Of a DNA stretch of 42,212 nucleotides, positions 11,914-33,471 are shown piece by piece. Location of the stretch: positions 1 to 42,212 of IMG/VR virus record IMGVR_UViG_3300020152_000013. One strand, written 5' to 3'. The position numbers and the translations under genes were made by a program. The first letter of the stretch is position 1; each line of letters starts with the position of its first letter. The notes under the pieces are model-generated. The model searched no databases, had not been told where the DNA came from, and saw only the letters and a program-made list of their open reading frames with translations. Source of the DNA: a virus.

Positions 11914-11937
11914 GCTTAGGTTCAGGGGAGCGTTAGC
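11914..11937 (-). promoter_or_regulatory. Late-type element, copy 1
   Basis: The minus strand reads TAACGCTC-CCCTGAAC-CTAAGC. It matches the other copies at 14321, 27761, 31146 and 33448 (core AACGCNNCCCTGAAC). It lies about 80 bases upstream of the first lysis gene. The region 11839-11971 around it has no other gene. It may be a promoter part or activator site. Confidence 0.55.
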
Positions 11938-12082
11938 CGCGTCCCCGCTCTGCTGATCTTCGGGGGTTGACTCAGGACCGCAGATTCGTTCTCGCCTTGC
12001 GCTTCGCTGCGGATTCGACTAGATTGCCGATGTCCTTGGGGCGAAGATTCAGGCTTTCGCCAGACCTGTTCCCGTTAGGGTT

Positions 12083-12832
12083 CTAGCCCCAAGGGCCGCG
12101 CTTCGGAGCGCCGCTCGGTATTGCGTTCCATATCGAAAACCGCATCTCCTTCGCCGGAGTGTTTCCCTTGAGGTTTTTGTCGGGGAACCGCGCCGCGACG
12201 TAATCGGCCAGCTCGCGTTTCGGCCCTACGAGCTGTCGGTCGTTTCGTATCGCGGTGAACGCCCCGAGGGGCACATCCAGGAGCTGAAGCAGCAACTCCC
12301 GCTTCGAGTCCCGGGGTTCAATACTGTCGATGCAATCCGTGGCGGCCGCGTGGTGGTGGCTCCCCCACTGATGAAGGCTGTCGATCTGGTTTACCAGGGC
12401 CGCGGTGCAGTCGCCATTGTCCGGTCGGATCCGCAGCTTATAGCGCTGCCCGTAAAAGCGCAGGGCGCGGTGCAGCAGGAGCTGAAAGTGCATCTTGCTT
12501 GTCGTGTCTACGCGCCGCTTCGGGCCGCTAAGCCGGTGATCGTATTTGTCAAACGGCGCGAACCGGATGTGGAAGTGAAAGCGCCCTGTGGTGACCCCAG
12601 CGTGGAAATGATCCACGAACGCCTTGTGGGCGCTATCACGGCGCGACTTCACGGCATTCCACTTCGTCTCTGACGGCCCGCCCAGCTGCTTCTTGATATC
12701 CGCGAGTTCGTCAGTAACGGCTTGTAGCTCGTAGTCCGGAATAGCCAGGCCAGCAACCGCCATGAACTCGTCATCGACGTACGAGCTTTCATCGCAGAAG
12801 AAGTACACGAATTTTGCCGCAGGCTTTGCCAT
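12083..12832 (-). CDS. DUF3800 protein (RNase H-like fold), possibly shortened by an amber codon
   Basis: The 249-aa product has the DUF3800 start FVYFFCDESSY (acidic D-E pair), followed by SETKWNAVK and later acidic/His positions (RPDNGD, SLHQWGSHHH). DUF3800 proteins are common in phages and mobile elements and have an RNase H-like fold; their targets are mostly unknown. The stop is TAG at 12083-12085. The same frame stays open for 36 coding-like codons to a TGA at 11972-11974, so the gene may have lost its end or be read through. GC is lower than its neighbours. A GTG at 12856 is an alternative start. Confidence 0.75.
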   Translation of the reverse strand: MAKPAAKFVYFFCDESSYVDDEFMAVAGLAIPDYELQAVTDELADIKKQLGGPSETKWNAVKSRRDSAHKAFVDHFHAGVTTGRFHFHIRFAPFDKYDHRLSGPKRRVDTTSKMHFQLLLHRALRFYGQRYKLRIRPDNGDCTAALVNQIDSLHQWGSHHHAAATDCIDSIEPRDSKRELLLQLLDVPLGAFTAIRNDRQLVGPKRELADYVAARFPDKNLKGNTPAKEMRFSIWNAIPSGAPKRGPWG

Positions 12833-12903
12833 GGCGGACAACAAAGCCGAATCCACTCACGCGCACAAGTTTGCCGGACTCGCGCGCCAGTGGCCCGCCC
12901 GTC

Positions 12904-13182
12904 CTAACCGAGCTTCACCGCTGTGACGACCACGCCGCCGGGGACCAGCGAGCGGCGGACGACCTTGAAGCCGTCCAGCCCTTCTTCGTGCGGCAGCTTG
13001 GCGACCAGCACAGCATCCGCCGGAAGGTCCACCACATGATCCGCCGCGACGATGGTCTCAGGGCCGATCTCGCCGGGGAACAGTCCAACGTCCTTCGGGT
13101 CGATTTCCACGCCCCGACAGGCGAGGAACTGGTGCCGATCCCATTGGGCGTGTTCTTCGATGTGAGCGCGCAGGGTGTCCAC
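12904..13182 (-). CDS. Hypothetical protein downstream of the fibre gene, 92 aa
   Basis: A GTG at 13182 lies 7 bases after the stop of the fibre gene. The product begins with a helical, acidic stretch (RAHIEEHAQWDRHQFL) and continues as a beta-rich domain (VADHVVDLPADAVLVAKL in outline, then GFKVVRRSLVPGGVVVTAVKLG). It is probably a small virion-related protein. I do not recognise it; the ribosome site is weak. Confidence 0.55.
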   Translation of the reverse strand: MDTLRAHIEEHAQWDRHQFLACRGVEIDPKDVGLFPGEIGPETIVAADHVVDLPADAVLVAKLPHEEGLDGFKVVRRSLVPGGVVVTAVKLG

Positions 13183-13189
13183 CCGGCGA

Positions 13190-14014
13190 TTATACCGCTG
13201 CGCCGACCGATGTCATATAGGTCTGATTGGCTCTGCTCAGCGCGAGATGTTCGGCGGGTGTCAAGACCCCGCCGATGACCGCGGCGCCCAGCGGCGTGGG
13301 CCGGAATTGGTCGGCCACGCCCGCGTTGTTGCGGCAACCGATGTAAATTTGGATGGCGACCAGCGCCGACCCCGGCGAGCTTGGCGAGGTCGTTCCAATC
13401 GAAACGCCGCGCTTGAACACCTCCCCGCCGGCGCCGTTACGCTGGTATACCGTCAACCCGCGGCTGTCCGTGACACCAGAGACCGACCCGCCGGACAGGG
13501 CGTGGTTATACATGCCCGCGGCGGCCGGCGTGGGGTTCGCATTGCGTGGGTTGAGGGCGATGTTGATGGTCGAAGACGAGTTCGCGCCGATGGCGGACGA
13601 ACCCGCCGCCCCGAGGTCGGCCCGCTCATAGACCCCCACGAAGCCGGCGGTGCCCGTCGCCTGCGTGCAATCGGTCGAGGGCACGAACCCCGTGGCCAGG
13701 TAGTTGCTCGTCCCGTTGAAGGTGTAGCCCCGATCAGCGGTGAAGGCTGGGCTGTTCTGCTCCGTCGCAACCGTCGCCACGTCCTTCCAGTTCACCCGTG
13801 CGGCCTGCGCGTCATGCGCCGCCAGCACGAACAGTGCGTCCAGCTTCGACCACACGCCCGCAGCCTTCAGTTGGCTCACGAAGCGGCTGATCTGCTGCGC
13901 CCGCACCAGCGAGGGGGACACGTCGAACGCATCCATCACCGTCTGCGCATCGGCGTCTATCGGCATACGCGCCGGAACGCGGCTCCGCAGGGAAAGGCCA
14001 AGTCCGAGGCTCAT
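13190..14014 (-). CDS. LamG-like carbohydrate-binding virion protein (fibre-associated)
   Basis: The 274-aa product has a helical N-terminus (residues 15-70, DAFDVSPSLVRAQQISRFV) with a central KLDALFVLAAHDAQAARVNW. The rest is a beta-sandwich typical of concanavalin/LamG-like phage proteins: YTFNGTSNYLATGFVPST, FVGVYERAD, YIGCRNNAG and LTPAEHLALSRA. Such proteins bind surface glycans. The start overlaps the stop of the spike-base-like gene. Its position after that gene supports a receptor-binding role. Confidence 0.65.
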   Translation of the reverse strand: MSLGLGLSLRSRVPARMPIDADAQTVMDAFDVSPSLVRAQQISRFVSQLKAAGVWSKLDALFVLAAHDAQAARVNWKDVATVATEQNSPAFTADRGYTFNGTSNYLATGFVPSTDCTQATGTAGFVGVYERADLGAAGSSAIGANSSSTINIALNPRNANPTPAAAGMYNHALSGGSVSGVTDSRGLTVYQRNGAGGEVFKRGVSIGTTSPSSPGSALVAIQIYIGCRNNAGVADQFRPTPLGAAVIGGVLTPAEHLALSRANQTYMTSVGAAV

Positions 14015-14250
14015 CGGCGGAAGGCGATGATGTCGGTCGCCGTGGTCCCGGTGCTGAGCACCTTCGTGAACTCGATGCCGACCGTCTCGCCCGCCAGAAG
14101 GTCTGGAATGATGAGGTCCTGACCATCGGCGCAGGTCAGGGCGACATCGCCCGCCCCGCCCACACGGAAGCCGATTCCGGCGTTGGCGTCAGCGTCGGAC
14201 GGAGTGACGGCGTAACCGCCTCGGGGAAGGAAAGCGTGCGGGTAGCTCAT
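14011..14250 (-). CDS. Spike-base-like protein (Rcc01079-type)
   Basis: The 79-aa product follows the short pattern AVTPSDA..., GFRVGGAGDVALTCADGQ, IPDLLAGETVGIEFTKVLSTGTTATDIIAF. This strongly resembles the small spike-base proteins found near receptor-binding genes of the Rhodobacter gene transfer agent and many alphaproteobacterial phages. It would sit under a spike or fibre on the virion. The ATG overlaps a two-codon ORF (ATG-CCA-TGA) behind AGAGG. A hairpin leader and late-type element lie upstream. Confidence 0.65.
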   Translation of the reverse strand: MSYPHAFLPRGGYAVTPSDADANAGIGFRVGGAGDVALTCADGQDLIIPDLLAGETVGIEFTKVLSTGTTATDIIAFRR

Positions 14251-14259
14251 GGCATCCTC

Positions 14260-14288
14260 TTGAGGACGCAGCCCGCCCGCTGCATACT
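14260..14288 (+). promoter_or_regulatory. Candidate rightward promoter for the 48-aa ORF
   Basis: TTGAGG (14260-14265) and CATACT (14283-14288) have a 17-base spacer and lie nine bases from the ATG at 14298, so the message would have almost no leader. The spacer is the shared 17-mer, so one DNA stretch may serve both strands. Confidence 0.35.
14268..14284 (-). promoter_or_regulatory. Leader hairpin, second copy of 11861-11877
   Basis: The 17 bases are identical to 11861-11877 and lie 17 bases upstream of the spike-base-like start, just before its AGAGG ribosome site. The distance to the GTTCAGGG core at 14327 is 59 bases, the same as at the lysis operon. Confidence 0.5.
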
Positions 14289-14297
14289 GGTTGTAGC

Positions 14298-14444
14298 ATG
14301 GATGAAAAACGGATCATCGACGTTAAGTTCAGGGACGTGTCCACGACGCCCTGGTGGCGGAACTGGCACTGGGACTGGCGGCCGATGGCCGGCGCGACGA
14401 TCATCGCGCTCATCGGTCTTCTTCGTCATTTCGCAGAGAAATAG
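14298..14444 (+). CDS. Possible small rightward membrane peptide, 48 aa
   Basis: The ORF starts at 14298 and overlaps the 3' end of the opposing ejection-protein gene by 35 bp. The peptide is charged at the start (MDEKRIIDVKFRDVS), Trp-rich in the middle (WWRNWHWDWRP) and then hydrophobic (AGATIIALIGLL), so it looks like a natural tail-anchored peptide. There is no clear ribosome site, but a promoter lies close upstream. The late-type element copy 2 lies inside it on the other strand, which lowers confidence. Confidence 0.45.
   Translation: MDEKRIIDVKFRDVSTTPWWRNWHWDWRPMAGATIIALIGLLRHFAEK
14321..14344 (-). promoter_or_regulatory. Late-type element, copy 2
   Basis: The minus strand reads GGACACGT-CCCTGAAC-TTAACG. 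This is the most divergent copy, but it lies 77 bases upstream of the start at 14250 and shares a downstream hairpin at fixed distance with copy 1. Confidence 0.45.
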
Positions 14445-16548
14445 CCGCCGCTCCCGCCGCCGGTAGCGGTCGCAGCGGGCGCTTCATCTTCGACGGCGGC
14501 GCGTCGATGCTGCGGATGACCGCCGAGCCCTTCACCTGCTGCGTGAGCCCCCGGATCATCGAGTCGATGAACGGCAGGTTCTTCAAGGCCGCCGGAACCA
14601 GCTTCAGCATCGCCACGGCCGAGTTGGACGAGTTGTCGCCCCCCTTCACTGGGGAGGTGATGCGCGCGGCTATCCGCACGAAGTTGGTGATCTGCGACTG
14701 TTCCGCCGGGGTGTAGAGCGTGCGGGCAAGGTTCGGGTCGTCGCGCAGGAAGTCCTCCCACGCCTTCTGGATCTTCACGCCTGACAGCTGGCGCGTGCCG
14801 GACTCCACCCCGCCGTCGCCGGGGCGCATGAGGCGCTTGAAATGCTCGCCGCGCAGGGCGTTCCAGTCCTCGGGGCTGTCCAGCAGCACCCGAAGCCGTT
14901 GAAGGTCGCGGTTGAGGTTCGGGCGGCTATGGGGAGCCCCCTTGCCGAAGATCGCGCGGCCAGCTTCCTCCGGGTCCACCTTGAGCGCGCGCCGCTCGCC
15001 GCCGCGCGCAACCCGCTCGGTCAGCGTCTCTACGAGGTCGTCGCCCTCGAACAGCTCGCCGAGCTTGCGGCGGTTCTTGATCGCGCCGCGCCAGCCCGCG
15101 ATGGACGCCTCGTCGCCCTGCAACAGGCCGCTCTCCAGCGCCTCGTCAATGTAGCCGTCCAGCGCCTTCTTCGCCGCCCGCGCGGCGGCCGCTTCGACCG
15201 TATCGGAGCTTTGGGTAAGCTGGTTGAGCTGCGCCCGCGCGTCGAACACCTCGCGCACGCGCACCGGGTTCACGGTGTCGTCGAACCGCTGCACCGCCCG
15301 CTGCACCCGCGGAACGCCCTGAAGGTCGAAGTCCATCAGCCCTTCGTGAAGGCGCTGGCCGATCACGGGAGCCTGGTCGGCCGGAAGCGCCACGCCGGTA
15401 TCCGCCTCCCGCGCTGACTTGTAGCTCGCAGACACCCACTGTTCGCCTCGGTCGCGCATCGCTGTCAGGCGCTCGGCGGCCGGGGTGGCGCCCGCCCCCA
15501 ACTCCCGCGCCTTGCCCCCGGCGAGGTTGTCGGCGATGACATCCACATTCTCTCGCAGGGCCTGCTGCTGTCGCGCCACCTGCCCCTGCATCACGGCCGC
15601 CGGTCGCTCGCCGTAGGCGCCGCGCAGGGCCATGTTCTCTTCAAGCTGGTGCGTCGGGTTCTGCGTCATATCCCCCCGGCGCATCGGCACCGGAACGGGG
15701 GTGTCGGAGGACGCGACGAAGGCCGCCACCTCGTCGGGCGTGCGTCCGCTTTCGATCAGCCGGATAGCGTTCTGGCGCGCAGCCGAGGACAGTCCGGCGG
15801 GGTCCAGCCCCTGCCCGCGCATCGACTCGTCCAGCGCCTGCTGCGGGTTGCGCACCCGCGCGCCGCCGCCCCGTGCGCCCGCAAGGCCGCCGCCGACGAT
15901 AGCGGCCCCGGTGCGCGCCCACGGCTCCAACGGCGTGCCTTCGGTCGCCTGTCCCGCCGCCTCCGAGGCGAGGCCCGGCAGGACAACCGAAAGCGTGCGA
16001 GCGACCGCTCCACCCGGCATCAGGGCGTTGGGCGCGAACTCGGCCGTGGTCTTGGCGTACTTGCCGGCTACGGTCTTGGGGTCGTAGTCCAGCCCGAGAT
16101 CACGGTAGGTGTCGCCCAGTCCCGTGTTGCCGAGTTCCGTTTCCGCGCTCTGCGCCCTGCGCCACGACTCCACGGGGTTGAGGTTGGACAGACCGAGCGA
16201 GTCGCCGGTCATGGCGAATGCCTTGCCGAGCCCCGCCGGGACCGCCCGCATGGCGTCCACCAGCATCCCCTGCGCGCTGTCGGCGTCGATCTCCTCCACC
16301 TGCATGGGGTCGTGCGGCTCGGGCACGAGGTTCTGGAACTGGCGCACCTCCTCGTCGGAGAGCTCGCGGCGGAAGTCCTGCGCGGGCGGGCGCACCCACA
16401 CGCCGGGCGCCACGCCCAAGTCGCCGCCCTGCACCTCCCCGCGCTTGGCAGGCCCCGCGGTGTAGGTCTCCCCGTTCACGCGCAGGTCCTCGCCCTCGGA
16501 CAGGCCGAGTTCCTTCAGCAGTTCGTCGTCAGACAGTTCCCTCGGCAT
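14410..16548 (-). CDS. Large ejection/internal virion protein, 712 aa
   Basis: The ATG at 16548 overlaps the previous stop (TGATG); a GTG lies one codon upstream. The product starts with LSDDELLKELGLSEGE, a phrase common at the start of phage structural proteins. A small hydrophobic region follows (residues ~180-235, with VVLPGLASEAAGQ and AAIVGGGLAGARGGG). The rest is long and helical. Helical proteins of this size next to a transglycosylase-like protein in podoviruses usually form the DNA ejection channel. The similarity is in layout, so the role is inferred. Confidence 0.65.
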   Translation of the reverse strand: MPRELSDDELLKELGLSEGEDLRVNGETYTAGPAKRGEVQGGDLGVAPGVWVRPPAQDFRRELSDEEVRQFQNLVPEPHDPMQVEEIDADSAQGMLVDAMRAVPAGLGKAFAMTGDSLGLSNLNPVESWRRAQSAETELGNTGLGDTYRDLGLDYDPKTVAGKYAKTTAEFAPNALMPGGAVARTLSVVLPGLASEAAGQATEGTPLEPWARTGAAIVGGGLAGARGGGARVRNPQQALDESMRGQGLDPAGLSSAARQNAIRLIESGRTPDEVAAFVASSDTPVPVPMRRGDMTQNPTHQLEENMALRGAYGERPAAVMQGQVARQQQALRENVDVIADNLAGGKARELGAGATPAAERLTAMRDRGEQWVSASYKSAREADTGVALPADQAPVIGQRLHEGLMDFDLQGVPRVQRAVQRFDDTVNPVRVREVFDARAQLNQLTQSSDTVEAAAARAAKKALDGYIDEALESGLLQGDEASIAGWRGAIKNRRKLGELFEGDDLVETLTERVARGGERRALKVDPEEAGRAIFGKGAPHSRPNLNRDLQRLRVLLDSPEDWNALRGEHFKRLMRPGDGGVESGTRQLSGVKIQKAWEDFLRDDPNLARTLYTPAEQSQITNFVRIAARITSPVKGGDNSSNSAVAMLKLVPAALKNLPFIDSMIRGLTQQVKGSAVIRSIDAPPSKMKRPLRPLPAAGAAAISLRNDEEDR

Positions 16549-18383
16549 CACTTCACCGCCTGCCAGCCGCTACCGGTCCAGCGGAAGTTCCTGCCCTTGA
16601 TGTTGTACACCTTGCCCTTCACGCGGCTCTGCACGGGCGGGAGTTCGAGCGGGGCGTCCTGCGCGCCCTTCGCCCGAGACGGGGCGAGGACCTGGGGCTT
16701 GGCGGGCGGCCCGTATTCGGCGTCGTAGGCCCGGCGCGAGGCCCCGTAGAGCGCGCGCATGGCGTCGTCGCGGGCCTGCGCCTTCTGCCACAGCACGTCC
16801 GGCCCATCCTCGAAGCGGGGGATGAACATGTCCATGTACTGGGCCATTTCGGTGTCGGTCACGGCCGCGCCGGTATCCTTGCGCAGGATGGGCGCGAGCC
16901 ATTCCTTGGCCGCCTGAATGAACATGCGGTCGTTGTCGCTGCGGGCCATGATGCGCAGCACGCCGTTCTTGTCGGTGTTGAACAGCGTCTCGGTCGGGGT
17001 GGAGGGCTTGAACACGCCGTTGCGGGCGAGGTCGTTCATGCGCTCGTTGGCCCCGAACACCCGATAGGTGAGCATGGCCCCGTTGCGCTCGCCGTCCGTG
17101 TAGGGCCGGTCCGTGCCGCCGAGCGCGTCCACCTTGCCGTCCGGACTGATCTGCCACGGGCGCTTGGGGTCCAGACCGCGCAGCTTGGCCTCGGCTTCCG
17201 AGAGGGTGCGCCACTGCTCCGCAGGACCGCCCTCCGCCAGTACGCGCGCACCGCTTTGCGCCTGCGGCTGGCCCTGCTGCGGGCGCTCGCCGTTCTCGAA
17301 CTCCCGCATGGCTTGGCGCACCCGACGCGCCACCTGCGGGTCCGACAGGTTGAGCGGATCGTTGAGCCCGACGCCGACCCGCTGCGCCACATAGGCCGCG
17401 TAGTTGTCCGTCGCCGCGCCATTCTCGCGCTTGGGAGCCCAACGCCCCACGATCTTGGCGGGCGTGTTGAAGCCGCGCTGGCCGTAGGACGCCAGCAACC
17501 GGTCGGCGGCGGACTCGCCATGCTCCATCGTCTCGAACCGAGCGAACCGACCCTCCCCCGGCTCGGGTCCAAGGTAGCCTGGCAGGCTGCGCGCGAACGG
17601 GCCGTCCTCGATGTTGCCGGGGTTGTTGTTGCGGAGCCCGCGAGGTTGCCCGCCAGCCGCCGGGGCCGGCGTGGGCGGGGCCTCCACGAGGCGCTCACGT
17701 GGCGACAGGGATTCCCGGCGGCGGTCGGCGTCCTGCGACAGTTCCTCGAACGTCGGAGCGCGGGGCGCGCTGTAGCGCACGTCCAGCCCGCCGTCCGGGG
17801 TCACGTTGGCGACGCCGAAGCGGTCGTCCACCTTCTCCACCAGCGGGGCGGTGTTGAAGGCCTCCGTGTCCGGGTTGTAGACGCTGCGGCCCACGGTGCG
17901 GGTTTCCAGCCCTGTGGAGCGGGACTTGGCCCACGCCTCGGGATCGGCGAGGAAGATCAGCTTCTCGCGGCCCTCCAGCCCCAGCCGGTCGGCCTCCTGC
18001 ATCATCAGGGCGCGCTGTTCCGCCTCCGCCCGCTCCTTGTCGGTCTTCTGGCGCATCAGGGCGCGCTGCTGCTGCATCTGCTCATAGGCCAGCGCGCGAT
18101 TGCCGCCGTCGTCAATGTCCTGGATCTCCCGCCCGAACCGACCCAGCCGATCAACGAAGTTCATGCCGTTGGCGTCGGGCGTGGTCGCCTTCTGGCGCAG
18201 GCGCGACAGGAAACCGCCGATGCCCCCGCCGCCCTCCTGCTGGGGGGTCAGCAGGGATTCGTAGCTGACGCCCGGCGCATCCTGAATGGGCGGCATGGGC
18301 GGGGCAGCGCCCGCCGCCATCAGCCGCGCCGGGTCCTGCGGGTTGAACATCCCCGCGAGGCTGGCGAGGTATTGCGAGATCAC
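16548..18383 (-). CDS. Ejection protein with peptidoglycan-hydrolase-like domain
   Basis: The 611-aa product starts at a GTG overlapping the previous stop. Around residues 248-345 it has RGLRNNNPGNI, RFARFETMEHGESAADRLL and TDNYAAYVAQRVGVG, the signature of phage structural lysozyme-like proteins that open the peptidoglycan during DNA entry. The N-terminal 200 residues include a Gln-rich coiled segment (YEQMQQQRALMRQKTDKE). The C-terminus has a short SH3-like strand set (GKVYNIKGRNFRWTGSGW). It probably travels in the virion and is ejected. Confidence 0.75.
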   Translation of the reverse strand: MISQYLASLAGMFNPQDPARLMAAGAAPPMPPIQDAPGVSYESLLTPQQEGGGGIGGFLSRLRQKATTPDANGMNFVDRLGRFGREIQDIDDGGNRALAYEQMQQQRALMRQKTDKERAEAEQRALMMQEADRLGLEGREKLIFLADPEAWAKSRSTGLETRTVGRSVYNPDTEAFNTAPLVEKVDDRFGVANVTPDGGLDVRYSAPRAPTFEELSQDADRRRESLSPRERLVEAPPTPAPAAGGQPRGLRNNNPGNIEDGPFARSLPGYLGPEPGEGRFARFETMEHGESAADRLLASYGQRGFNTPAKIVGRWAPKRENGAATDNYAAYVAQRVGVGLNDPLNLSDPQVARRVRQAMREFENGERPQQGQPQAQSGARVLAEGGPAEQWRTLSEAEAKLRGLDPKRPWQISPDGKVDALGGTDRPYTDGERNGAMLTYRVFGANERMNDLARNGVFKPSTPTETLFNTDKNGVLRIMARSDNDRMFIQAAKEWLAPILRKDTGAAVTDTEMAQYMDMFIPRFEDGPDVLWQKAQARDDAMRALYGASRRAYDAEYGPPAKPQVLAPSRAKGAQDAPLELPPVQSRVKGKVYNIKGRNFRWTGSGWQAVK

Positions 18384-18757
18384 CGGTTGAAGCCCCGGTT
18401 CTGGAACCAGCTATCGCGCTGGCCCATCTGAGCCGCGCGGTTGCCGAGGCCGTCGATCTGGCCCGCGAAGTCCGCCCGCGACCGCTGGCCGCCGAAGTCG
18501 GAGAACTGGCCCTGCCGGTGCGGCTGGCCCGGACCGCGGCCGCCGAGCGCATCGCCCCAGCCGTAGCCGCCCCAGCGGGGGAGGCCGGCGAAGCCGCTCA
18601 TGGTGGAGCCGCCCATGCCCGGAGGCATCGGGGACACCTCGGGTGTCATCGTCTGCGGGCGCACCGGGTTGACGATGGCCGGGTCCAGCCCGCCCATGAC
18701 GCCGGTCTGCTGCTGTTTGCCGAAGAGCTGGGGGTTGTTCAGGGTCTGGAAGATCAC
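18380..18757 (-). CDS. Low-complexity Gly/Pro/Gln-rich virion-region protein, 125 aa
   Basis: The start overlaps the previous stop by 4 bases. The product is rich in Gly, Pro, Met and Gln (MPPGMGGSTMSGFAGLP, GQPHRQGQFSDFGGQ) and is probably disordered. Position between two ejection-type genes suggests an internal virion component. No known family. Confidence 0.6.
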   Translation of the reverse strand: MIFQTLNNPQLFGKQQQTGVMGGLDPAIVNPVRPQTMTPEVSPMPPGMGGSTMSGFAGLPRWGGYGWGDALGGRGPGQPHRQGQFSDFGGQRSRADFAGQIDGLGNRAAQMGQRDSWFQNRGFNR

Positions 18758-26130: not shown

Positions 26131-26154
26131 CCGTTTTCCTTGCTCTGAGGGCGG

Positions 26155-26532
26155 TCAGAGGTTCGGAATGTAGGCGATCACCACCTGACCGACGCCCGCG
26201 GAGGCGGCGGTGCCGGTCAGATCGACCGTGGCGAGGATCGTCGTGTCGGCCGAGACGTAGAAGCTCACCGCCTCGTCGCAGGGGACGTAGCCGGCGGAGC
26301 CCAGCGCCAGGTCGGTGGCGTAGAGGTCGAGGTCGCCCGAGATGCCGATGTCGAGGACGTTGGTCGAGCCGGCGTTGAAGGCGGTCGAGACGTTCGCGCC
26401 CGAGATCGGCTTGACGATGACCGAGCCGGCCGGGATCGTGCCGACCGTCAGCGAGAGCCCGTCGTCCGCGTAGGTGAAGTCCTTGCGGAGGTAGTGGATC
26501 TGCTGCGTGTGGTATTGACGTGCGTTGCTCAT
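26155..26532 (-). CDS. Capsid-associated (decoration-type) protein, 125 aa
   Basis: The ATG lies 5 bases after the capsid stop. The product is beta-rich and hydrophobic (DDGLSLTVGTIPAGSVIVKPI, STNVLDIGISGDLDLYATD, ILATVDLTGTAASAGVGQVVIAYIPN). Proteins of this kind directly after N4-gp56-type capsid genes are usually head decoration or fibre proteins. It is the last gene before a strong terminator, so it should be made at levels like the capsid protein. Confidence 0.65.
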   Translation of the reverse strand: MSNARQYHTQQIHYLRKDFTYADDGLSLTVGTIPAGSVIVKPISGANVSTAFNAGSTNVLDIGISGDLDLYATDLALGSAGYVPCDEAVSFYVSADTTILATVDLTGTAASAGVGQVVIAYIPNL

Positions 26533-26537
26533 GGCGA

Positions 26538-27593
26538 TCACCCGGCCGTGTAAGTGGAGATGACCAGCGACGAGAAGTCGGCGCTGTTGAACTGGGTCTT
26601 CTTCAGGCCGTAGATGAAGCCTGCCTTGACGCCGAGCTGGTTGCCGTAGTCGAACAGCTCTTCCTGCCACGCCGGGTCATTCACGCCGTTGCTGTCGCCG
26701 CCGAAGGCGATGGCCGCGGCCTGGGCGCCGCAGAAGACGGCGCGGCGGGTGTTGTCCACGGCGGTCAGGGCCGTCGAGTGGACGCCCTTGGGCAGGTACT
26801 GGCTCTCGTGCAGGATGACGCCGTTGTACTCGCCCAGCGCACCCGAGTAGATCGGGTTGTTGGACACGTCGCCGCCCTGCATGGCGGCCTTCTGGATGTC
26901 GAGCCACTGGCCGGTCGTGGTCGAGGTCCGCATCTGCTCCACCTGGTAAGGGTGCAGGAAGCAGACGTACTTCGACTTGCCGCCGATCTTCAGCGGGCGG
27001 AAGCCCGGAGAGGCCAGCTTGGCGGTCGTCACGGCCCGGTCGATCAGCGTCAGGGTGAACAGGTCGGACGAGTCGATGCCCTGGTCCGTGGTGGCGTCGC
27101 CGCCGCGCAGGATCGAGGTCGCGGCCAGCGCCGCCTGGTTGCCGGTGTACTTCGTGTCGGTCTGAGCGACGTTGCCGGCGATCTGGTTCATGAACGCGAC
27201 TTCATGGCGCTCGGTCCACCAGTCCTTGAGGCCGTCCTTGGACTCCTCGCGGATCGACCACGGAACGCGCTGTTCCGTCATCTTGCCCTTCACGCGCACG
27301 GCGTGGCGAAGCTGGTTGATCAGGATGTCGTCGGTGTAGGTGGACAGCGACTCCTCGTTGCCTTCGAGGGTGTCGTCGCCCTGCACGCCGGCGCCGGTCA
27401 GCTTCATGCGCAGGGTCAGGCGGATGCGGTCGCCCGCGGACTTCTTCAGGTCGTTCTTGCGCTGGATGAGCGCGGACGGACCGTCGCCGATGAAGCGGCC
27501 GATGAAGGATTCCTTGATCGACTCCCGGTAAAGGGCCTTCGACCAGAGCTTGACGACTTCCGGGGCGTTTACGCCGTATTCGGTAGCGGACAT
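26538..27593 (-). CDS. Major capsid protein, N4-gp56 family
   Basis: The 351-aa product matches the N4-gp56 family: KLWSKALYRESIKESFIGRFIG, IQRKNDLKKSAGDRIRLTLRMKLTG, TLEGNEESLSTYTDDILINQLRHAVR, VCFLHPYQVEQMR, and the C-terminal VKAGFIYGLKKTQFNS. It forms the HK97-fold shell. A late-type element and a terminator lie upstream, leaving a leader of about 170 bases that contains an inverted repeat GATCC-GTGCGT-GGATC at 27688-27703. Confidence 0.9.
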   Translation of the reverse strand: MSATEYGVNAPEVVKLWSKALYRESIKESFIGRFIGDGPSALIQRKNDLKKSAGDRIRLTLRMKLTGAGVQGDDTLEGNEESLSTYTDDILINQLRHAVRVKGKMTEQRVPWSIREESKDGLKDWWTERHEVAFMNQIAGNVAQTDTKYTGNQAALAATSILRGGDATTDQGIDSSDLFTLTLIDRAVTTAKLASPGFRPLKIGGKSKYVCFLHPYQVEQMRTSTTTGQWLDIQKAAMQGGDVSNNPIYSGALGEYNGVILHESQYLPKGVHSTALTAVDNTRRAVFCGAQAAAIAFGGDSNGVNDPAWQEELFDYGNQLGVKAGFIYGLKKTQFNSADFSSLVISTYTAG

Positions 27594-27760
27594 TGGTCTC
27601 TCACGGTTGAAAAGGGGATGGCTTTCGCCTTCGCCTCCCGTCCGTGGGGGCCTACGCCTCGCGACTCATGGGCTCGCGGAACCCTGCGATCCGTGCGTGG
27701 ATCAGTCGTCTCCCGTAAGGGGTGATTGGAGCCTGCCAGATGCCCGCCGGAAAGCCAGCG

Positions 27761-27784
27761 GCTTAGGTTCAGGGCCGCGTTGCT
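27761..27784 (-). promoter_or_regulatory. Late-type element, copy 3 (capsid)
   Basis: The minus strand reads CAACGCGG-CCCTGAAC-CTAAGC. It follows directly after the scaffold terminator and precedes the capsid leader, the expected place for a separate capsid promoter. The 27594-27760 leader shows no gene. Confidence 0.6.
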
Positions 27785-27792
27785 AAGCAAAA

Positions 27793-27812
27793 CCCCCGGT
27801 GTGCGCCGGGGG
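27793..27812 (-). terminator. Rho-independent terminator after the scaffold gene
   Basis: The minus strand forms CCCCCGG-loop-CCGGGGG followed by TTTT. It lies 45 bases after the scaffold stop and just before the late-type element, so upstream transcription is cut and capsid transcription restarted. Confidence 0.8.
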
Positions 27813-27857
27813 CCGCTTCGCCTCAGGGGGCATGGGTGCGGCCGGGGCCGCTCGGGG

Positions 27858-28682
27858 TCAGGCGCTTCGTCGCTGCTGCTGCTGGAACTGCGACCACGCC
27901 TTGTCGAAGGCATCGCCCTCCAGCGTGTTGATGTACTCGATGGTCAGTTCCTTGCCGCCGCGACCGCCGCCTTGCAGCCCGGCGTTCGCCTGCTGGCCGG
28001 CCTTGATCTTGTCGATGGCGCCCGGCGCACGCTGCTCGGCCGTGAAGCCCCGCTGCTTGGAGAGGTTGTAGAACACTTCCGCCGGGTTCTTGTTGGCCTT
28101 CACCGCACGGTCCGTGATGCCGAGGTACTCCACCCGCAGGGCGTGCTGGATCTCGGCCGGGCTGTAGCCCATGGCCTGGTATTCCTGCGTACGCGAGACG
28201 GTCAGGTACTCGGCGGCCTTCTGGTAGTCCGGATGGTCCTCGGCGAACTCGGCCTCGTACTCGCTCAACGTGGCCTCGACCTGCGCCACCTGCTGCTGGA
28301 ACCGCGTGGCCTGCTCGCGCTCCTGCGCCTCGCGCGCCTGCTGCTGCTGGATCGTCTCGAACCGCTGGTGAATCTGCTCCAGCGCGCCGATGGGATCGTC
28401 CTGCACGCTGATCGGCTTGGCCGGGGCTTCCGGCTTGGGCGCGGCGTACTGCTGAAGCCGGGCCTCCATCTCCTGGAACCGGCGCTCGTACTCGCGCTTC
28501 TCGGCGCGACGGGCTGCCCGCTCGGCCTTCAGGGCTATGGCGGGGTCGCCTCGGGGCTTCTCGGGCTCGGCCTGCTCGGCAGGCGGTGCGTCATCAGCGC
28601 CGCCAGCACCTGCGTCATCCACGGGAGGCTGTTCGGTCTCGACTTCGGGAGCGTCGGACTCGGTGAAGTATGCATCGCTCAT
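27858..28682 (-). CDS. Scaffolding protein
   Basis: The 274-aa product is acidic and disordered at the start (SDAPEVETEQPPVDDAG) and then a long Gln/Glu/Ala coiled coil (RFQEMEARLQQYAAPKPE, REAQEREQATRFQQQVAQVE). A more ordered C-terminal part ends in DAFDKAWSQFQQQQRR. Composition, length and position between portal and capsid fit a scaffold that guides procapsid assembly and then leaves. Confidence 0.8.
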   Translation of the reverse strand: MSDAYFTESDAPEVETEQPPVDDAGAGGADDAPPAEQAEPEKPRGDPAIALKAERAARRAEKREYERRFQEMEARLQQYAAPKPEAPAKPISVQDDPIGALEQIHQRFETIQQQQAREAQEREQATRFQQQVAQVEATLSEYEAEFAEDHPDYQKAAEYLTVSRTQEYQAMGYSPAEIQHALRVEYLGITDRAVKANKNPAEVFYNLSKQRGFTAEQRAPGAIDKIKAGQQANAGLQGGGRGGKELTIEYINTLEGDAFDKAWSQFQQQQRRSA

Positions 28683-28691
28683 GGTTCGCCC

Positions 28692-30572
28692 TTAGAACTG
28701 TTGCTGGGGATCGCCGGGCGTAGCGGCCTGTTGGCCCTGCATCCCGGCTAGGTACATCTGGCCGATCTCGGAGATGGCCTTGGAGAAGTTCAGTTTCGCC
28801 TGCGCCTGCTTCTGCTGGGCGCCCGCCTGCTTCTCGGCCACGGTCGCCTGCGCGTCGGCGATGGTGAGCTGCTGCATCTGTTCTTCCGCAGGGTCGGGCT
28901 CAGGCGGCTCGGACAGGAATTTGGCGATGTCCGTCGCGAGCGCGGTCGGCAGCGGCGAGTAGCGGACCATCTTCGCCCACAGCTCCGGCGGCATATCCTT
29001 CAAGAGCGGGGTCATCTGCATGATCATCGACCACACCCGCTCCTTCTGGTTCGGGCCGGCCGGGGCTTCGTCCACCACCACGTCGTACTTCGCCGTCTCC
29101 GGCTGCATGGACAGGGGGACGTACTGCGCGTCCCCGTTGTCGCCGACGATGCGGATCAGTTGGCCGTCGAGGTAGCGCATCAGCTTCAGCAACAGGCGGC
29201 CCTGCTGCTTGCGGTAGCGGCGCAGGCTGTCGAAGAAGTCGGCGAGGATGCCGTAGGCGGCCTGCTTGCGCTGATGCTCCAGAACCCCGGCCTGGTCCCG
29301 GTCCACCATCCCCAGCATTTCCTGGTTGACCCCGGTCGTGTCGCGGATCGAGGCGATGGCGAACTCCATCATCGGCACGATCTGCGGGGGAACCACGGCG
29401 GGCGGCTTGGGCTGGATGCTCCCGGCCTGCAACGCCCCGCCCTGCACCCAACTGATGGAGCCGTGCTTGGCCCAGTCCTGCTCGAAGGTGCGCACGTCAT
29501 CGACGACCGACCGCTCGGCGATCAGGCCGCCCTTGGCCGAACTGGCGAGGATGGCGAGAAGCTGGCTGAAGAACTGGTTGGCCCACTTCTGCGGGTCCTG
29601 CATGGGCTTCACCAGCCCGTACCAGACGCCGCGGTTGCGGTCCCGCTTGCCGGTGATGCACTTCAGGGTGAACTCCCCATCGGGAAGCGCGCCCTGTTCG
29701 AGGATCGTGTCGCCCGCCACCACGGCCTTGCGGTAGCGGCGCTGCTTCACGCGGGTGGAGTTGAGCACGCGGCCCTCGGCCTTGGCCTCCTCCTCCAGCT
29801 TGTCGAACTCGTCCACCGGCACGCGCAGGGGAACGTCCGGATTGGCCGGGTCCTCCACCAGCACGACCGTCTCGGTGTCGTACCACTGGTAGCAGCGGAC
29901 ATAGACCTCGTTCGCGTCCGCCTGATCGTCGCCCTCGTAGGCGTCGCGCGGGTCGGTGTGGTGAACCGGGGCCTCTTCCCTGCCCTCGGGCCACTTGTCC
30001 TTGCCCCACAGGGCCTCGAACTCGGACTTAGAGTACGGCTTGCGCCAGCGGACGTATCGCGCGTCGGCGAGGTTGCGCTTGCGGGCGATGGGATCGGCCA
30101 GGACCTCCAGCGGGTCGATGCGGTCCACCAGGATCTTCCCCTCGGGGTCCTCCTCGTAGTCCACCCGCGTTTCGGTCCAGCCGAGGCCGCAGATCAGCGC
30201 GTCCCGGAAGGCGTCGGATTCCTCCACGCCCGCATCGCACTCGTCGCGGAAGTACTCGGCACCCTTGGACAGCACCTCGTTCACGCCGCTGTCGCCGATC
30301 TCGCGGGGGAAGTACTGCACCTGCTGGCGGTTGCTGATCTCAGCGCCCGACACGGCGTCGATCATCGGCCCGACGCGGTTGAAGACGGGGGCGATACGGC
30401 CCTTGTCCTTCAGCTCGGCCTCATCCTCGGCGGACCACTGCTCGCCGGAGACGAAGCGGTACATCTCGCGGGCTTCGCGGCGCCACTTGCCCCAGTGGCC
30501 GTCCAGCGCCTTGTCCCAGTCGGTGAACTTGGCGAGGAGTTCGGTGTCGTCTGTTTCGGTGTAATCAGCCAT
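28692..30572 (-). CDS. Portal protein, P22-like
   Basis: The ATG at 30572 gives 626 residues starting MADYTETDDTELLAKF. The sequence follows the P22-type portal pattern: MYRFVSGEQWSAEDEAELK, PVFNRVGPMIDAVSGAEISNRQQ, YRKQQGRLLLKLMRYLDGQL and a C-terminal coiled region rich in Gln and Ala (TIADAQATVAEKQAGAQQ). It forms the dodecameric channel for DNA entry and exit. The gene overlaps a small membrane-protein gene by 8 bases upstream. Confidence 0.9.
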   Translation of the reverse strand: MADYTETDDTELLAKFTDWDKALDGHWGKWRREAREMYRFVSGEQWSAEDEAELKDKGRIAPVFNRVGPMIDAVSGAEISNRQQVQYFPREIGDSGVNEVLSKGAEYFRDECDAGVEESDAFRDALICGLGWTETRVDYEEDPEGKILVDRIDPLEVLADPIARKRNLADARYVRWRKPYSKSEFEALWGKDKWPEGREEAPVHHTDPRDAYEGDDQADANEVYVRCYQWYDTETVVLVEDPANPDVPLRVPVDEFDKLEEEAKAEGRVLNSTRVKQRRYRKAVVAGDTILEQGALPDGEFTLKCITGKRDRNRGVWYGLVKPMQDPQKWANQFFSQLLAILASSAKGGLIAERSVVDDVRTFEQDWAKHGSISWVQGGALQAGSIQPKPPAVVPPQIVPMMEFAIASIRDTTGVNQEMLGMVDRDQAGVLEHQRKQAAYGILADFFDSLRRYRKQQGRLLLKLMRYLDGQLIRIVGDNGDAQYVPLSMQPETAKYDVVVDEAPAGPNQKERVWSMIMQMTPLLKDMPPELWAKMVRYSPLPTALATDIAKFLSEPPEPDPAEEQMQQLTIADAQATVAEKQAGAQQKQAQAKLNFSKAISEIGQMYLAGMQGQQAATPGDPQQQF

Positions 30573-30735
30573 GCGGGCCGGTCCACGGGTCGATCTGCGG
30601 CACGCGGCGGGCGCGGCCCGGAGGCGACCCCAGCGGGCTATTCGCCATCTCACGCATGAGCCAGCCGACCAGAGCGGCGAAGAGCCCGAACACGAATCCG
30701 GTCCCTACCAGCGCTACCACCATCGGTACGCTCAC
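30565..30735 (-). CDS. Small membrane protein between AR-type gene and portal, 56 aa
   Basis: The GTG at 30735 overlaps the previous stop (GTGA) and the stop overlaps the portal start by 8 bases. The N-terminal half is hydrophobic (PMVVALVGTGFVFGLFAALVGWL) and the C-terminal half is basic and Pro-rich (SPPGRARRVPQIDPW). Coupling on both sides supports translation. The function in the packaging/portal transcript is unknown. Confidence 0.65.
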   Translation of the reverse strand: MSVPMVVALVGTGFVFGLFAALVGWLMREMANSPLGSPPGRARRVPQIDPWTGPHG

Positions 30736-31091
30736 GCGGACACCCGCGCGGCGAGACGCAGGCGGGCGGCCGGAGCATCGCCCTTCACCACCTCGGAGAA
30801 CGCGACGTTGCCGCCGGGCGACAAGCGCGTGACGCTGATGACCAGCCCAAGCGGGGTTTCGTCCTCGCTCCAGACGTGCGGGTCGTCCGTGACCGGGGTC
30901 CAGTCGTAGAGCGCGCCGTCCGGTCCAGCCTGTGGCTGGGCGGCGACCACGGCCTCATCGACCTCGACAGCGGCCTGCGCGAACGCGTCGATGGACTGCG
31001 AGACCAGCATCCCCGTCTCGTCGTCCTGCACGGTGACGGCGACCACCTTGTCTTCCGGACCGATTTTGGGCTTACGGCGACCGCGCGGCAT
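30732..31091 (-). CDS. Hypothetical protein first in the portal transcript, 119 aa
   Basis: The ATG at 31091 follows AAGGAGCAGCC. The N-terminus is basic (MPRGRRKPKIG), the rest acidic and beta-rich (DKVVAVTVQDDETGMLVSQSI, PLGLVISVTRLSPGGNVAFS). It is the first gene after late-type element copy 4. I do not recognise it. Confidence 0.65.
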   Translation of the reverse strand: MPRGRRKPKIGPEDKVVAVTVQDDETGMLVSQSIDAFAQAAVEVDEAVVAAQPQAGPDGALYDWTPVTDDPHVWSEDETPLGLVISVTRLSPGGNVAFSEVVKGDAPAARLRLAARVSA

Positions 31092-31145
31092 GGCTGCTCC
31101 TTGGATCGCCAGCCATTGTGGTCACGGCCTTTGCGGGCGCAACAG

Positions 31146-31169
31146 CTTGTAGTTCAGGGCGCGGTTGTC
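31146..31169 (-). promoter_or_regulatory. Late-type element, copy 4 (portal transcript)
   Basis: The minus strand reads ACAACCGCG-CCCTGAAC-TACAAG and begins at the terminase stop codon, about 60 bases ahead of the next gene. The 76-bp gap between the two genes is the only non-coding stretch between terminase and scaffold of any size. Confidence 0.55.
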
Positions 31170-32616
31170 ACGCGGCCCATCCCGACGCCGAGCGCGGCTT
31201 GCGGGCGTAGCGATCCCTGGGCTTGTCCGGCTGCTTCGGCTGCTTCGCCCACGGCCGCGACATGCAGGCATAGCGCCAGTCGTCGCCTGCGTGGTCCTCG
31301 CCGTCCGTGTCCACGTCCTCGGGCCGGTTGCGGTCGTGCTGAAGCGCCGGGATCGTGCGGATGCTGTCGAGGCACGTGGAGAAGGTCGCGATCATCGGCA
31401 GTCCGTCCTCATCGCCCATCAGCCGGGCGCGCATCTGGTCCCAACCGCCCATCGCTCCCCGGCCCGACACCCGCGCATTGTCCGCACGAGTGAACGCGAT
31501 GACGTGATCAGCGCCCCGGTGCAGGCGCTCGGCAATGGACGGGCCGCCGTCCGAGGCGAAGGCCGCCGGGTCCAGCCTGCCGTATGTCAGGCGCTCGGTC
31601 GGGCGCGTGGCGATCTTCCCATCAGGGGCGAACACCCCGCCCATGCGCTCAACCAGGCCACGACCTACCTGCTCGGCGGGGATCTTCAGCCCCTCGTTCG
31701 GCTCGCCGGTCGATCCATACCACTCGCGATAGCGCACGATGCAGCCCCTTGGCAGGGTGACGCCGCACGGGGTTATGAACGCGTCGTCCACGATAGCCCA
31801 CCAGCCGAAGCTAAACGGCTTGGCTGAGCCCCAGTCCCCAGACATGAACCGCGCCCACGTCGCCGGGATCTCGAACGGTCGCACCACATGGCGGCTCGCG
31901 CTCCAGCAGTCGAAGAACGCGCCCTCCAGTACGTTCCAGTCGCCATCGAGCATGGCCTTCGCCAACTGCCCGCCGAGGCCGCGAAGGCGACCGGCGTAGT
32001 TCGGGTCATTGCGCAGCAGCGCCGCGTTGTCGGTCAGCAGCGCGGGCACGAACATGCGCTCCATGCCGGTGTCCGCGTCCCGTATCGGCTGATAGCCCAT
32101 AGGCGCCGGGTCGATGAAGTACGCCTTCACCGCGAGGTGGCCAGCGCCGCCGGGGTTCGCCGCCGCCCTGATGCGCTTTGTCGGCACACTGTGAGCGGAG
32201 CGCAGGCGGCTGCGCAGGTAGCGGTAGCAGAACAGGTTCGCCCACTGCGTCAGCTCGTCCCAGCCCACCCATGTGTACTGGTGACCCTGGTAGCGGGTCA
32301 CGTCTCGCTCGCTCTCGCAGTACCTGAGCTTCAGGTTCGCGCCGTTCGGCCACGACCATGTGCGCTTCTGCTCGTTCCATGTCGCGCCGGTCTGCGGGTA
32401 GATTTCTCGGGCGCGCGCCAGCAGCTCCTCTAGCTCGGGGAAGGTGCGGCGGAACAGGATGCCGCGCCACGCCTGCCCGTAGGTCTGAACGTCCTGAAGG
32501 TAGTCGCCCAGCAGGAAGTCTGACTTCCCCCCGCCCGCCGCGCCGCCGTAGAACAGTTCATCACACCACGTCGCCGTGATCGCTTCAGTCTGCGGTCCCG
32601 GCTGCGGCGCCCACAT
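31168..32616 (-). CDS. terL: Terminase large subunit
   Basis: The 482-aa product has the ATPase Walker A GGAAGGGKS (about 24-32) and a Walker B-type VGWDELTQW. It also has the coupling stretch RAAANPGGAGH and the nuclease motifs SGDWGSAKPFSFG and a C-terminal GDDWRYACMS. It cuts and pumps DNA into the procapsid through the portal. Its start lies 32 bases inside the small-subunit gene. The late-type element copy 4 begins at its stop. Confidence 0.95.
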   Translation of the reverse strand: MWAPQPGPQTEAITATWCDELFYGGAAGGGKSDFLLGDYLQDVQTYGQAWRGILFRRTFPELEELLARAREIYPQTGATWNEQKRTWSWPNGANLKLRYCESERDVTRYQGHQYTWVGWDELTQWANLFCYRYLRSRLRSAHSVPTKRIRAAANPGGAGHLAVKAYFIDPAPMGYQPIRDADTGMERMFVPALLTDNAALLRNDPNYAGRLRGLGGQLAKAMLDGDWNVLEGAFFDCWSASRHVVRPFEIPATWARFMSGDWGSAKPFSFGWWAIVDDAFITPCGVTLPRGCIVRYREWYGSTGEPNEGLKIPAEQVGRGLVERMGGVFAPDGKIATRPTERLTYGRLDPAAFASDGGPSIAERLHRGADHVIAFTRADNARVSGRGAMGGWDQMRARLMGDEDGLPMIATFSTCLDSIRTIPALQHDRNRPEDVDTDGEDHAGDDWRYACMSRPWAKQPKQPDKPRDRYARKPRSASGWAA

Positions 32617-33106
32617 GGCCCAACTCCCTGTTCCGGCGCTCTAGCCATTCCTCGCGCGTTTCGTTGGGGGGGCGGTCAACGATGGTCTGGATCGGGCCGC
32701 CATCGGGACCGCTGATCTCCGTCGTCAGGCGCTCCCCGTAGCGCTTCGGGTCCCACTTCGCGAGAAGCTTCAGGCGCGTCTCCACTCGCAGCTTCGAGCG
32801 GCTGATCCATTCCGTGTTGGCCGCCTCTCGCGGGGCATCCTCCGGCCCGACAAGCACCGTGTCGTGCGCGGTACAATCTGCGATAGCCAGACACTCGGCC
32901 GCCAGGGCATCGAAACCATCTTCGCGCGCGCGTGCGAAGTCGGCGGCAAACGCCTCGTGAGCCTTCTTCCAATCCGAGACAGTGCGAACGGCGGGCATGT
33001 GCTCATCACGGCAGATCGACGCCAGCGGCTCACCTTTAGACAGGCGCTCGCATATCTCCTCCGCTGCCTTCTGCGTGTATGTGGTTGGGCGGCCTCTCGC
33101 TGCCAT
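32585..33106 (-). CDS. terS: Terminase small subunit
   Basis: The ATG at 33106 shares a base with the previous stop (TGATGG). The 173-aa product begins with a helix-turn-helix domain (GRPTTYTQKAAEEICERLS, SICRDEHMPAVRTVSDWKK). A helical part (RSKLRVETRLKLLAKWDPKRYG) and a C-terminal tail follow. KLRVETRLKLLAKWDPKRYG is a frequent phrase in phage small terminases. It recognises the packaging site and recruits the large subunit. Confidence 0.85.
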   Translation of the reverse strand: MAARGRPTTYTQKAAEEICERLSKGEPLASICRDEHMPAVRTVSDWKKAHEAFAADFARAREDGFDALAAECLAIADCTAHDTVLVGPEDAPREAANTEWISRSKLRVETRLKLLAKWDPKRYGERLTTEISGPDGGPIQTIVDRPPNETREEWLERRNRELGHVGAAAGTAD

Positions 33107-33471
33107 CAGTCGAACTCCCCGACAAGGCCGTGCATGGAGTTCAGCGCCGCATCGCATTCGGTGAGGCCGCGTTCCGTGAGACGGTTGCCGTACCAGCGGG
33201 TTCCTTCGAGGCCGGACATCTGTTCGATGCCTCCACGGTCGAGGGCTTCCCGAATGTTGGCGATGTGGTTCTTCACCGCGCCGACCGATCCGCCTCCGGG
33301 CCTGCTGATGAGGGCGAGCTGCTTGTGCGTGAGCCAGCCCTTGGCGAGGTAGAGCGCTTCGAGAATCCTGGCCTCGGTGGAAGACAGGCCGAACCACTCC
33401 ACGAAATCAGCCTGCATTCTCGTATCGACGCCGAGGGAGCGCCACGGCCATATGTTCAGGGCTGCGTTCAC
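33106..33471 (-). CDS. OmpR-type winged-helix protein (late activator candidate)
   Basis: The GTG at 33471 has GGGAGG five bases upstream and overlaps the previous stop (GTGA). It gives 121 aa. LSSTEARILEALYLAKGWLTHKQLALI then GAVKNHIANIREALDRG and GTRWYGNRL follow the winged-helix domain of response regulators (three helices and a wing), without a receiver domain. It lies just before the terminase genes and its own start codon falls inside a copy of the late-type element. That makes it a plausible late-gene regulator, which is inference. The later ATG at 33417 would omit the element. Confidence 0.65.
   Translation of the reverse strand: MNAALNIWPWRSLGVDTRMQADFVEWFGLSSTEARILEALYLAKGWLTHKQLALISRPGGGSVGAVKNHIANIREALDRGGIEQMSGLEGTRWYGNRLTERGLTECDAALNSMHGLVGEFD
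33448..33471 (-). promoter_or_regulatory. Late-type element, copy 5 (overlaps a start codon)
   Basis: The minus strand reads GTGAACGCAG-CCCTGAAC-ATATGG and coincides with the first eight codons of the winged-helix gene. It differs from copy 3 by only one base in the 15-bp core. It shows a direct repeat TGAAC-N7-TGAAC. It could be coding only, or an autoregulatory site. Confidence 0.35.

Follow-up and report, generated by a model that had tools for sequence, protein, structure and literature searches.

What is the function of a short element that recurs on one strand of a phage genome, in gaps ahead of the lysis, tail, capsid and portal genes? We examined this question for IMG/VR virus record IMGVR_UViG_3300020152_000013, a stretch of 42,212 bases with 67% G+C that was analyzed in its entirety (hereafter the window), although the record itself could be a fragment. 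The observations described below, all of them computational, indicate that the element is probably an upstream activator box shared by several late promoters under common control.

A repeated box in the gaps of the leftward region

The initial annotation described a core sequence at four minus-strand sites, plus a weaker fifth copy, and proposed that these mark the heads of leftward transcription units. The strand assignment is correct, whereas the coordinates given were about six bases too low. The full core, AACGCNNCCCTGAAC, is exact at only three places (11920, 27767 and 33454). The weaker copy at 14327 carries two mismatches, and so does the copy now placed at 31152, which had been counted among the four at 31146.

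Four of the copies reside in gaps between leftward genes, as had been claimed. Copy 1 (11920-11934, AACGCTCCCCTGAAC, exact) occupies the gap 11839-12082 upstream of a lysis cassette, copy 2 (14327-14341, GACACGTCCCTGAAC) the gap 14251-14409 upstream of a tail-fibre-like gene, and copy 3 (27767-27781, AACGCGGCCCTGAAC, exact) the gap 27594-27857 before the major capsid gene. Copy 4 (31152-31166, AACCGCGCCCTGAAC) begins immediately past the TerL stop codon and precedes the open reading frame (ORF) 30732-31091 and the portal gene. The least certain is copy 5 (33454-33468, AACGCAGCCCTGAAC, exact), which overlaps the first codons of a winged-helix-like ORF whose likely start is the GTG at 33471. The same box thus stands before several late operons, with the four gap copies ahead of lysis, tail, capsid and portal genes.

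The central 8-mer of the box, CCCTGAAC, occurs eight times in the whole window against 1.38 expected, a count reached in none of 100 shuffles, and seven of the eight occurrences are on the minus strand. Matches to the full core with no more than two mismatches number six against 1.44 expected (1/100 shuffles reached six); the sixth, at 20028 on the plus strand, is probably due to chance. We then considered the nine leftward gaps drawn by hand from the gene map, which total 1,726 bases or 4.1% of the window. A shared-word scan confirmed that CCCTGAAC is present in more of these gaps (four of nine) than any other 8-mer, and only 6 of 300 shuffles had some 8-mer in four gaps. Four of its seven minus-strand occurrences fall in gaps (binomial P 9e-5), or four of six when only the late region is counted (2e-4).

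Conservation extends beyond the 8-mer. The strongest three-column block outside the core of the five aligned copies is AAC at alignment positions -7 to -5, which none of 3000 random sets of five sites equals. Four copies carry AAC and the copy at 14327 carries GAC, and the resulting AAC/GAAC direct repeat has the 12-bp period that the initial annotation had noted. When the four gap copies are aligned alone, the best block is TAA at positions +9 to +11 (3/3000 gap sets and 0/3000 window-wide sets). The further CCCTGAAC occurrences at 914, 18737 and 41729 lie outside the leftward gaps and lack the upstream half, again as first described. The repeated element is real, although two of its five copies are inexact, and it is probably more than a chance occurrence.

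A -10-like hexamer at a fixed distance from the box

The element had been said not to resemble a standard -35/-10 promoter. This holds for the -35, as none is apparent by eye at the box copies, but not for the -10. At all four gap copies a -10-like hexamer starts 31 nucleotides (nt) after the end of CCCTGAAC, or at offset 39 from its start. Each candidate hexamer was scored by its matches to TATAAT, with one point added for a TG one base ahead of it, at offsets 10 to 74 from the CCCTGAAC start. At offset 39 the copies score 5 (11920), 5 (14327), 3 (27767), 4 (31152) and 1 (33454), giving a sum of 18, and the summed score at the 64 other offsets never exceeds 10. The hexamers are TATCCT with a TG extension (TGCTATCCT, 11883-11888) at copy 1, TACAAC with a TG extension (TGCTACAAC, 14290-14295) at copy 2, CAGGCT with a TG extension (27730-27735), the weakest of the four, at copy 3, and CACAAT (31115-31120) at copy 4. 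Copy 5 has GAGAAT (33416-33421) one base further, at offset 40, where it scores 4.

Random sets of five positions reached the score of 18 once in 20,000 draws from the gaps, to which a tenth stretch (33416-33470) had been added for this purpose, and never in 20,000 draws from the late region. The score of 17 for the four gap copies was reached in 0/20,000 sets from either source. Likewise, no result as good was seen in 20,000 trials in which the copies were shifted randomly by at most 25 nt and read at offsets 34-44. The non-gap occurrences at 914, 18737 and 41729 score 1, 0 and 2 at offset 39. In a scan of the whole strand for 8-mers with at least four occurrences, read at offsets 20 to 60, the top combination among 108,158 on its own strand is CCCTGAAC at offset 39 (z 5.36). 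No consensus sigma70 promoter was found in 26000-38500, and the two found in 8300-19000 are at neither copy 1 nor copy 2.

If the hexamer is a -10 element, then CCCTGAAC would occupy -51 to -44 and the upstream AAC -58 to -56. From this register we infer transcription starts at 11876, 14283, 27723 and 31108, which would give leaders of 38, 33, 130 and 17 nt to the genes with start codons at 11838, 14250, 27593 and 31091, as expected for the late-promoter role first suggested for the element.

A proposed mechanism for late-gene activation

A box at -58 to -44, a -10 in fixed register with it and the lack of an apparent -35 point to promoters that depend on an activator and are used by host polymerase with a host sigma factor. 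We infer from the sequence that a protein, most likely encoded by the phage, would bind the asymmetric box AACgC-N2-CCCTGAAC-N-TAA, whose AAC triplets are spaced at a 12-bp period. Bound at about -58 to -44, this activator would recruit host RNA polymerase carrying the main sigma factor to a promoter whose -10, at -12 to -7, is weak and which lacks a usable -35. The promoters would be silent before the activator is made, and afterwards the lysis, tail, capsid, portal and perhaps terminase genes would be turned on together. The arrangement suggests that one switch protein turns on the late genes as a group. A phage-specific activator working with host polymerase, as in the initial annotation, seems to us still the simplest reading, since no gene for an RNA polymerase or sigma factor was recognized among the ORFs searched, which are a subset of all ORFs.

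Anatomy of the individual sites

The transcription-unit interpretation fits best at copy 3. Just upstream of this copy is a hairpin (27789-27812, minus strand; CCCCCGG-CGCACA-CCGGGGG followed by TTTT) that by sequence and fold is likely a terminator; a terminator scan requiring at least five T in eight bases did not list it. Another terminator-like hairpin, with 14 pairs, was listed by that scan on the minus strand at 26097-26132 between ORFs 26155-26670 and 25477-26079. It is inside the structural operon and no box follows it. The scan gave fewer terminator-like sites (3) than it did on shuffled sequence (6.1).

Copies 1 and 2 share more than the box. A 16-nt leader, GCAGCGGGCGGGCTGC, begins at the predicted start of copy 1 (11861-11876), recurs identically at copy 2 (14268-14283) and is found nowhere else in the window. 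The two sites are identical at 8/8 bases of the core, 3/4 of the next bases, 5/24 of the spacer (chance level), 5/9 around the -10 and 17/18 at the predicted start. Because identity is confined to these blocks, we view them as blocks that have been kept rather than as remnants of a recent duplication of the whole. The leader is possibly an mRNA-stabilizing or translation-control element. By sequence its GCAGC can pair with GCTGC; folds of longer leaders pair differently. A 5'-leader hairpin common to all the promoters was considered and dropped, as the leader is common to copies 1 and 2 only.

Copy 5 fits the transcription-unit interpretation least. It overlaps the best start of the 121-amino-acid (aa) ORF 33106-33471 (GTG at 33471, with a good Shine-Dalgarno sequence and the better ribosome site) and reads as the codons V-N-A-A-L-N. 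Its predicted start, 33410, is inside that ORF, and thus copy 5 could serve only the terminase small subunit gene (TerS) and the genes beyond it. TerS (32585-33106, minus strand) has the first gene start downstream of this site.

Candidate activators

Which protein might bind the box? By position and helix-strand order, the leading candidate is the 121-aa orphan ORF just mentioned (33106-33471, minus strand), which lies between the early genes and TerS, and we put it forward tentatively as the late activator. A single-sequence structure model (mean pLDDT 55.6) contains helices and two strands in winged-helix order. The matches listed highest by Foldseek are mostly MarR proteins, the best at E 0.28 and none at 0.001; a second structural aligner gave only Z values below 5, with unrelated proteins on top. 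A sequence search of the PDB returned only a de novo designed protein (E 0.035), matches in four bacterial genomes were no better than E 0.0475, and a search of 385 genomes of one class, run without a positive control, gave none at 0.001. In 18 relatives, inspection by eye of the ORFs that precede TerL revealed no clear counterpart. Upstream of the candidate, and overlapping its start by GTGA, is a 60-aa ORF (33468-33650, minus strand) with a CxxC near its end, which matches phrog_14788 and phrog_15216 (E 2e-4 and 6e-4), both of unknown function.

A second candidate regulator, which might instead be a replication protein, is a 161-aa protein (35028-35513, minus strand) with a C-terminal DnaA-type helix-turn-helix (HTH; PF08299). 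This stand-alone gene adjoins a RepO-like gene, and its HTH part is matched by six phage records. The third and weak candidate is a 146-aa protein of the early region (36292-36732, minus strand) that is helical in a low-confidence model (pLDDT 56.4). It matches a portion of a response-regulator model below the cut-off (E 0.062) and has no match in phage records. In the search for polymerase and sigma genes, ORF 7123-7356 hit only zinc-ribbon models below their cut-offs, two of them named after transcription proteins.

We consider it rather doubtful that the full combination of these features defines a new class of activator. Such a class would consist of a stand-alone 121-aa winged-helix-like protein with no detectable relatives, encoded before TerS, binding an asymmetric direct repeat of 12-bp period at -58/-46 and serving four or five late promoters with a -10 and no -35, one of them inside the 5' end of its own gene.

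Conservation in relatives and evidence against the proposal

A number of observations weigh against an activator box. There are only five copies, two imperfect and one inside a coding start, and the excess of alignment columns with at least four of five identical bases is modest (13 versus 7.2; 161/5000 random sets). The list of gaps was drawn by hand after the finding had been read. CAGGCT and TATCCT are poor -10 elements, and z is 5.37 for the best 8-mer/offset combination of the plus strand, compared with 5.36 for CCCTGAAC. The genome-wide scan alone is therefore not decisive, and the -10 is convincing only in combination with the placement in gaps. With regard to the leading candidate activator, its model is low in confidence, and no homologue was found in Pfam, NCBIfam, PHROGs, phage records, plasmids or the loci of relatives, nor in IMG/VR by a search that finds close relatives only.

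The comparison with relatives points the same way. The exact box occurs in none of 168 loci (80 capsid, 80 terminase and 8 from bacterial genomes), all from distant relatives; no close relative was found. In the capsid loci, matches to the box with at most two mismatches number 35, versus 37 for the reversed box and 15 and 19 for shuffled versions. Near matches in the loci from bacterial genomes number 10 (versus 1 reversed, and 1 and 4 shuffled). These ten, and two more in a phage record, all carry two mismatches and fall within long open frames, and none is followed by a good -10 (best score 3). A 21-kb slice of the window, equal to the longest of the relatives' loci, was not among the 15 best listed in a scan of the 300 nt before the capsid gene, which indicates that the relatives' loci could hardly have shown an element of this kind. 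When taken whole, the window comes out first among the 46 sequences of that scan, and in 44 relatives no recurring 8-mer ahead of the capsid gene matches its score (at most 4.73 versus 5.36).

The capsid relatives are 40-56% identical and the terminase relatives at best 67%. In the terminase loci there are 57 near matches (29 and 28 by strand), versus 39 reversed and 21 and 27 shuffled. A scan of IMG/VR for AACGCNNCCCTGAACNTAAG gave two loci, in both of which the match is inside an ORF and blastn similarity to the window is absent. The gap before the capsid gene has only two weak matches in phage records (E 0.9), and the portal has no match in bacterial genomes. Crude scans for analogous elements in relatives, one of them over 79 sequences including the window, returned nothing convincing; two of these carry little weight, since their gene caller missed the element of the window as well. 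One relative (L074) has CGCGCGGC in four of seven gaps, with 1/60 shuffles, the lowest count in the scan of 79 sequences. The 8-mer/offset matches in L090, L148, L168, L133 and L158 were judged by eye to be duplicated stretches, unrelated places, AT-rich or other repeats, or repeats within one long ORF. We dropped a ranking of the relatives by tblastx when nearly the whole window appeared 'covered', an outcome ascribed to GC-rich frames. On the plus strand of a terminase relative (L145), the 8-mer GGCGGGTT occurs in three of five called gaps (0/100 resamples), possibly as a further repeated element. Within the collections searched, the box is found in this phage only.

Alternative explanations

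The explanation that survives best after our own keeps the same promoters and replaces the phage activator with a host regulator, for example an OmpR-family protein similar to CtrA, which binds direct repeats, such that late transcription would follow host physiology. We regard this as unlikely. The host itself is likely alphaproteobacterial. Six of the eight capsid matches in bacterial genomes are titled Ruegeria, Caulobacteraceae, Hyphomonas or Methylobacterium (three of them Methylobacterium), all of which we take to be Alphaproteobacteria and which suggest a host where such a regulator might operate; the other two are Nitrosotalea and a Thiotrichaceae assembly. Copy 1 contains CTAAC-N7-TGAAC, and the CtrA site given for Rhodobacter, GTAAC-N6-TTAAC, is also a direct repeat ending in AAC (PMC6363796). 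However, the period is 12 here versus 11 in the CtrA site. The second half of the box is CCCTGAAC in all five copies and never TTAAC, and TAAC is present in the first half of copy 1 only. In addition, binding of CtrA to the RcGTA structural promoter was reportedly not detected.

Slightly less probable is a combination of chance and coding bias, in which CCCTGAAC is simply a frequent word, its placement in gaps and the -10 are coincidental, and copies 1 and 2 came with a duplicated leader. Genome-wide scans that ignore gap information do produce noise of similar size, the 7-mer GGCGGGC, which does not belong to the box, is in more gaps than the box (five of nine; 12/300 shuffles), copy 5 reads as codons, and copies 1 and 2 have the 16-nt block in common. 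Against this stand three separate departures from chance, namely the gaps (P 9e-5), the -10 (at most 1/20,000) and the upstream half (0/3000), together with a spacer that is at chance identity between copies 1 and 2.

We find it improbable that the box is a loading site for a Q-like or GafZ-like antitermination or elongation factor at constitutive promoters whose transcripts stop early. The slot just before TerS is a usual one for Q-type regulators, and the orphan gene adjoins TerS. GafZ is described as binding near a promoter and letting polymerase pass a terminator, and its proposed element lies between -35 and -10 (PMC11150451), whereas the box precedes the predicted start site. Constitutive firing is unlikely with no apparent -35, and antitermination does not need several separate copies.

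Least probable is that the box itself is the promoter of a single-subunit phage RNA polymerase or of an ECF-type sigma factor with GAAC as its -35, for although phage polymerase promoters are about the size of the box (about 19 bp) and GAAC resembles ECF -35 elements, no such polymerase or sigma gene was recognized among the ORFs searched, and the -10-like hexamer, 31 nt away, is more distant than a -35/-10 pair allows and would be superfluous for a T7-like promoter.

Genes of the leftward region

The leftward genes run from early functions through TerS, TerL, portal, a scaffold-like ORF, capsid and tail/ejection-type genes to the lysis cassette. The early set includes an XRE-type regulator, a RusA-like protein, the DnaA-type HTH protein and the RepO-like protein. 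The phage is temperate, an integrase is encoded at 5003-6214, and podoviruses are among its capsid relatives.

Family searches place lysis genes behind copy 1 (10845-11838, minus strand). The ORFs 11557-11838 and 11255-11560 are small and membrane-protein-like by eye, with no informative family, and are followed by the endolysin (10845-11258, minus strand) and then an Rz-like spanin (10328-10723, minus strand). The genes behind copy 2 (13190-14250, minus strand) had been called a spike-base unit; 14011-14250 is tail-fibre-like (phrog_12296) and supports a tail role, but 13190-14014 matches only families of unknown function. Behind copy 3 is the major capsid gene (26538-27593, minus strand), and upstream of this copy is ORF 27858-28682 (minus strand), which is scaffold-like by position only. 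Copy 4 precedes the minus-strand unit 28692-31091, composed of ORF 30732-31091 (no family) and the portal gene (28692-30572 by its likely start).

Among other features of the window, the rightward region encodes two HNH endonucleases (38585-39052 and 41633-42205, both plus strand). A near-consensus sigma70 promoter (13189-13216, minus strand; ATGACA-16-TATAAT, 11/12) lies in the gap before ORF 12083-12856 (phrog_3732, unknown function). This ORF is among the late genes and without a box, and has the look of a cargo (moron) gene that is expressed independently.

Comparison with known regulatory systems

Late-gene control is known in detail only for a few model phages. A narrow literature search on Bcep22 and late-gene promoters gave, by title, no work on a late switch. 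The sequence of the window by itself provides a late regulon that can be tested, with a box, a register, starts predicted with an accuracy of a few bases and a handful of candidate activators. The two-block test used here, which combines a word shared among gaps with a -10 at a single offset, may also reveal regulons of this type in other orphan phages.

Gene transfer agents offer one comparison. A single phage-derived regulator (GafA or GafY-GafZ) is reported to turn on their structural and lysis genes, and GafA is similar in its N-terminal part to the DNA-binding domain of DnaA (PMC6363796, PMC9638019, PMC11150451). In the protein encoded at 35028-35513, by contrast, the DnaA-type HTH is C-terminal. 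The putative GafY element spans -123 to -113 and acts together with an IHF site, and the bases mutated in it were ACTATG (PMC11150451), whereas the box described here is at about -58 to -44 and has another sequence (IHF sites were not searched). Caulobacter principal-sigma promoters have the -10 sequence GCTANAWC (PMC8144410). By eye, GCTACAAC of copy 2 is a full match to it and copy 1 begins GCTA, such that these two copies resemble that -10, while copies 3 and 4 fit poorly and a TTGACG-like -35 was not seen.

Closer in logic are the late promoters of P2-like phages that respond to Ogr/Delta, where, as here, one motif stands before several late operons, upstream of the start and with no sigma70-type promoter. 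For example, phiRSY1 has one motif in four non-coding regions (PMC5694545). The P2 Ogr site is an inverted repeat, TGTTGT-N13-ACAACA, in contrast to the asymmetric direct repeat of the box. No TGT...ACA dyad was seen by eye in the printed alignment of the five copies, and no ORF among those searched matches an Ogr-like family. Similarly, Mor and C, which serve the middle and late promoters of phage Mu, are phage activators that bind just upstream of a sigma70 promoter needing an activator, the arrangement proposed here. The Mor element has 5-bp inverted repeats and is centered at -43.5 (PMC4390567), whereas the box is an AAC/AAC direct repeat of 12 bp centered near -51. The ORFs searched include no match to a Mor/C-like family. 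Thus, the box belongs to neither group by sequence or symmetry, but by analogy its logic is like that of the P2 Ogr and Mu Mor promoters.

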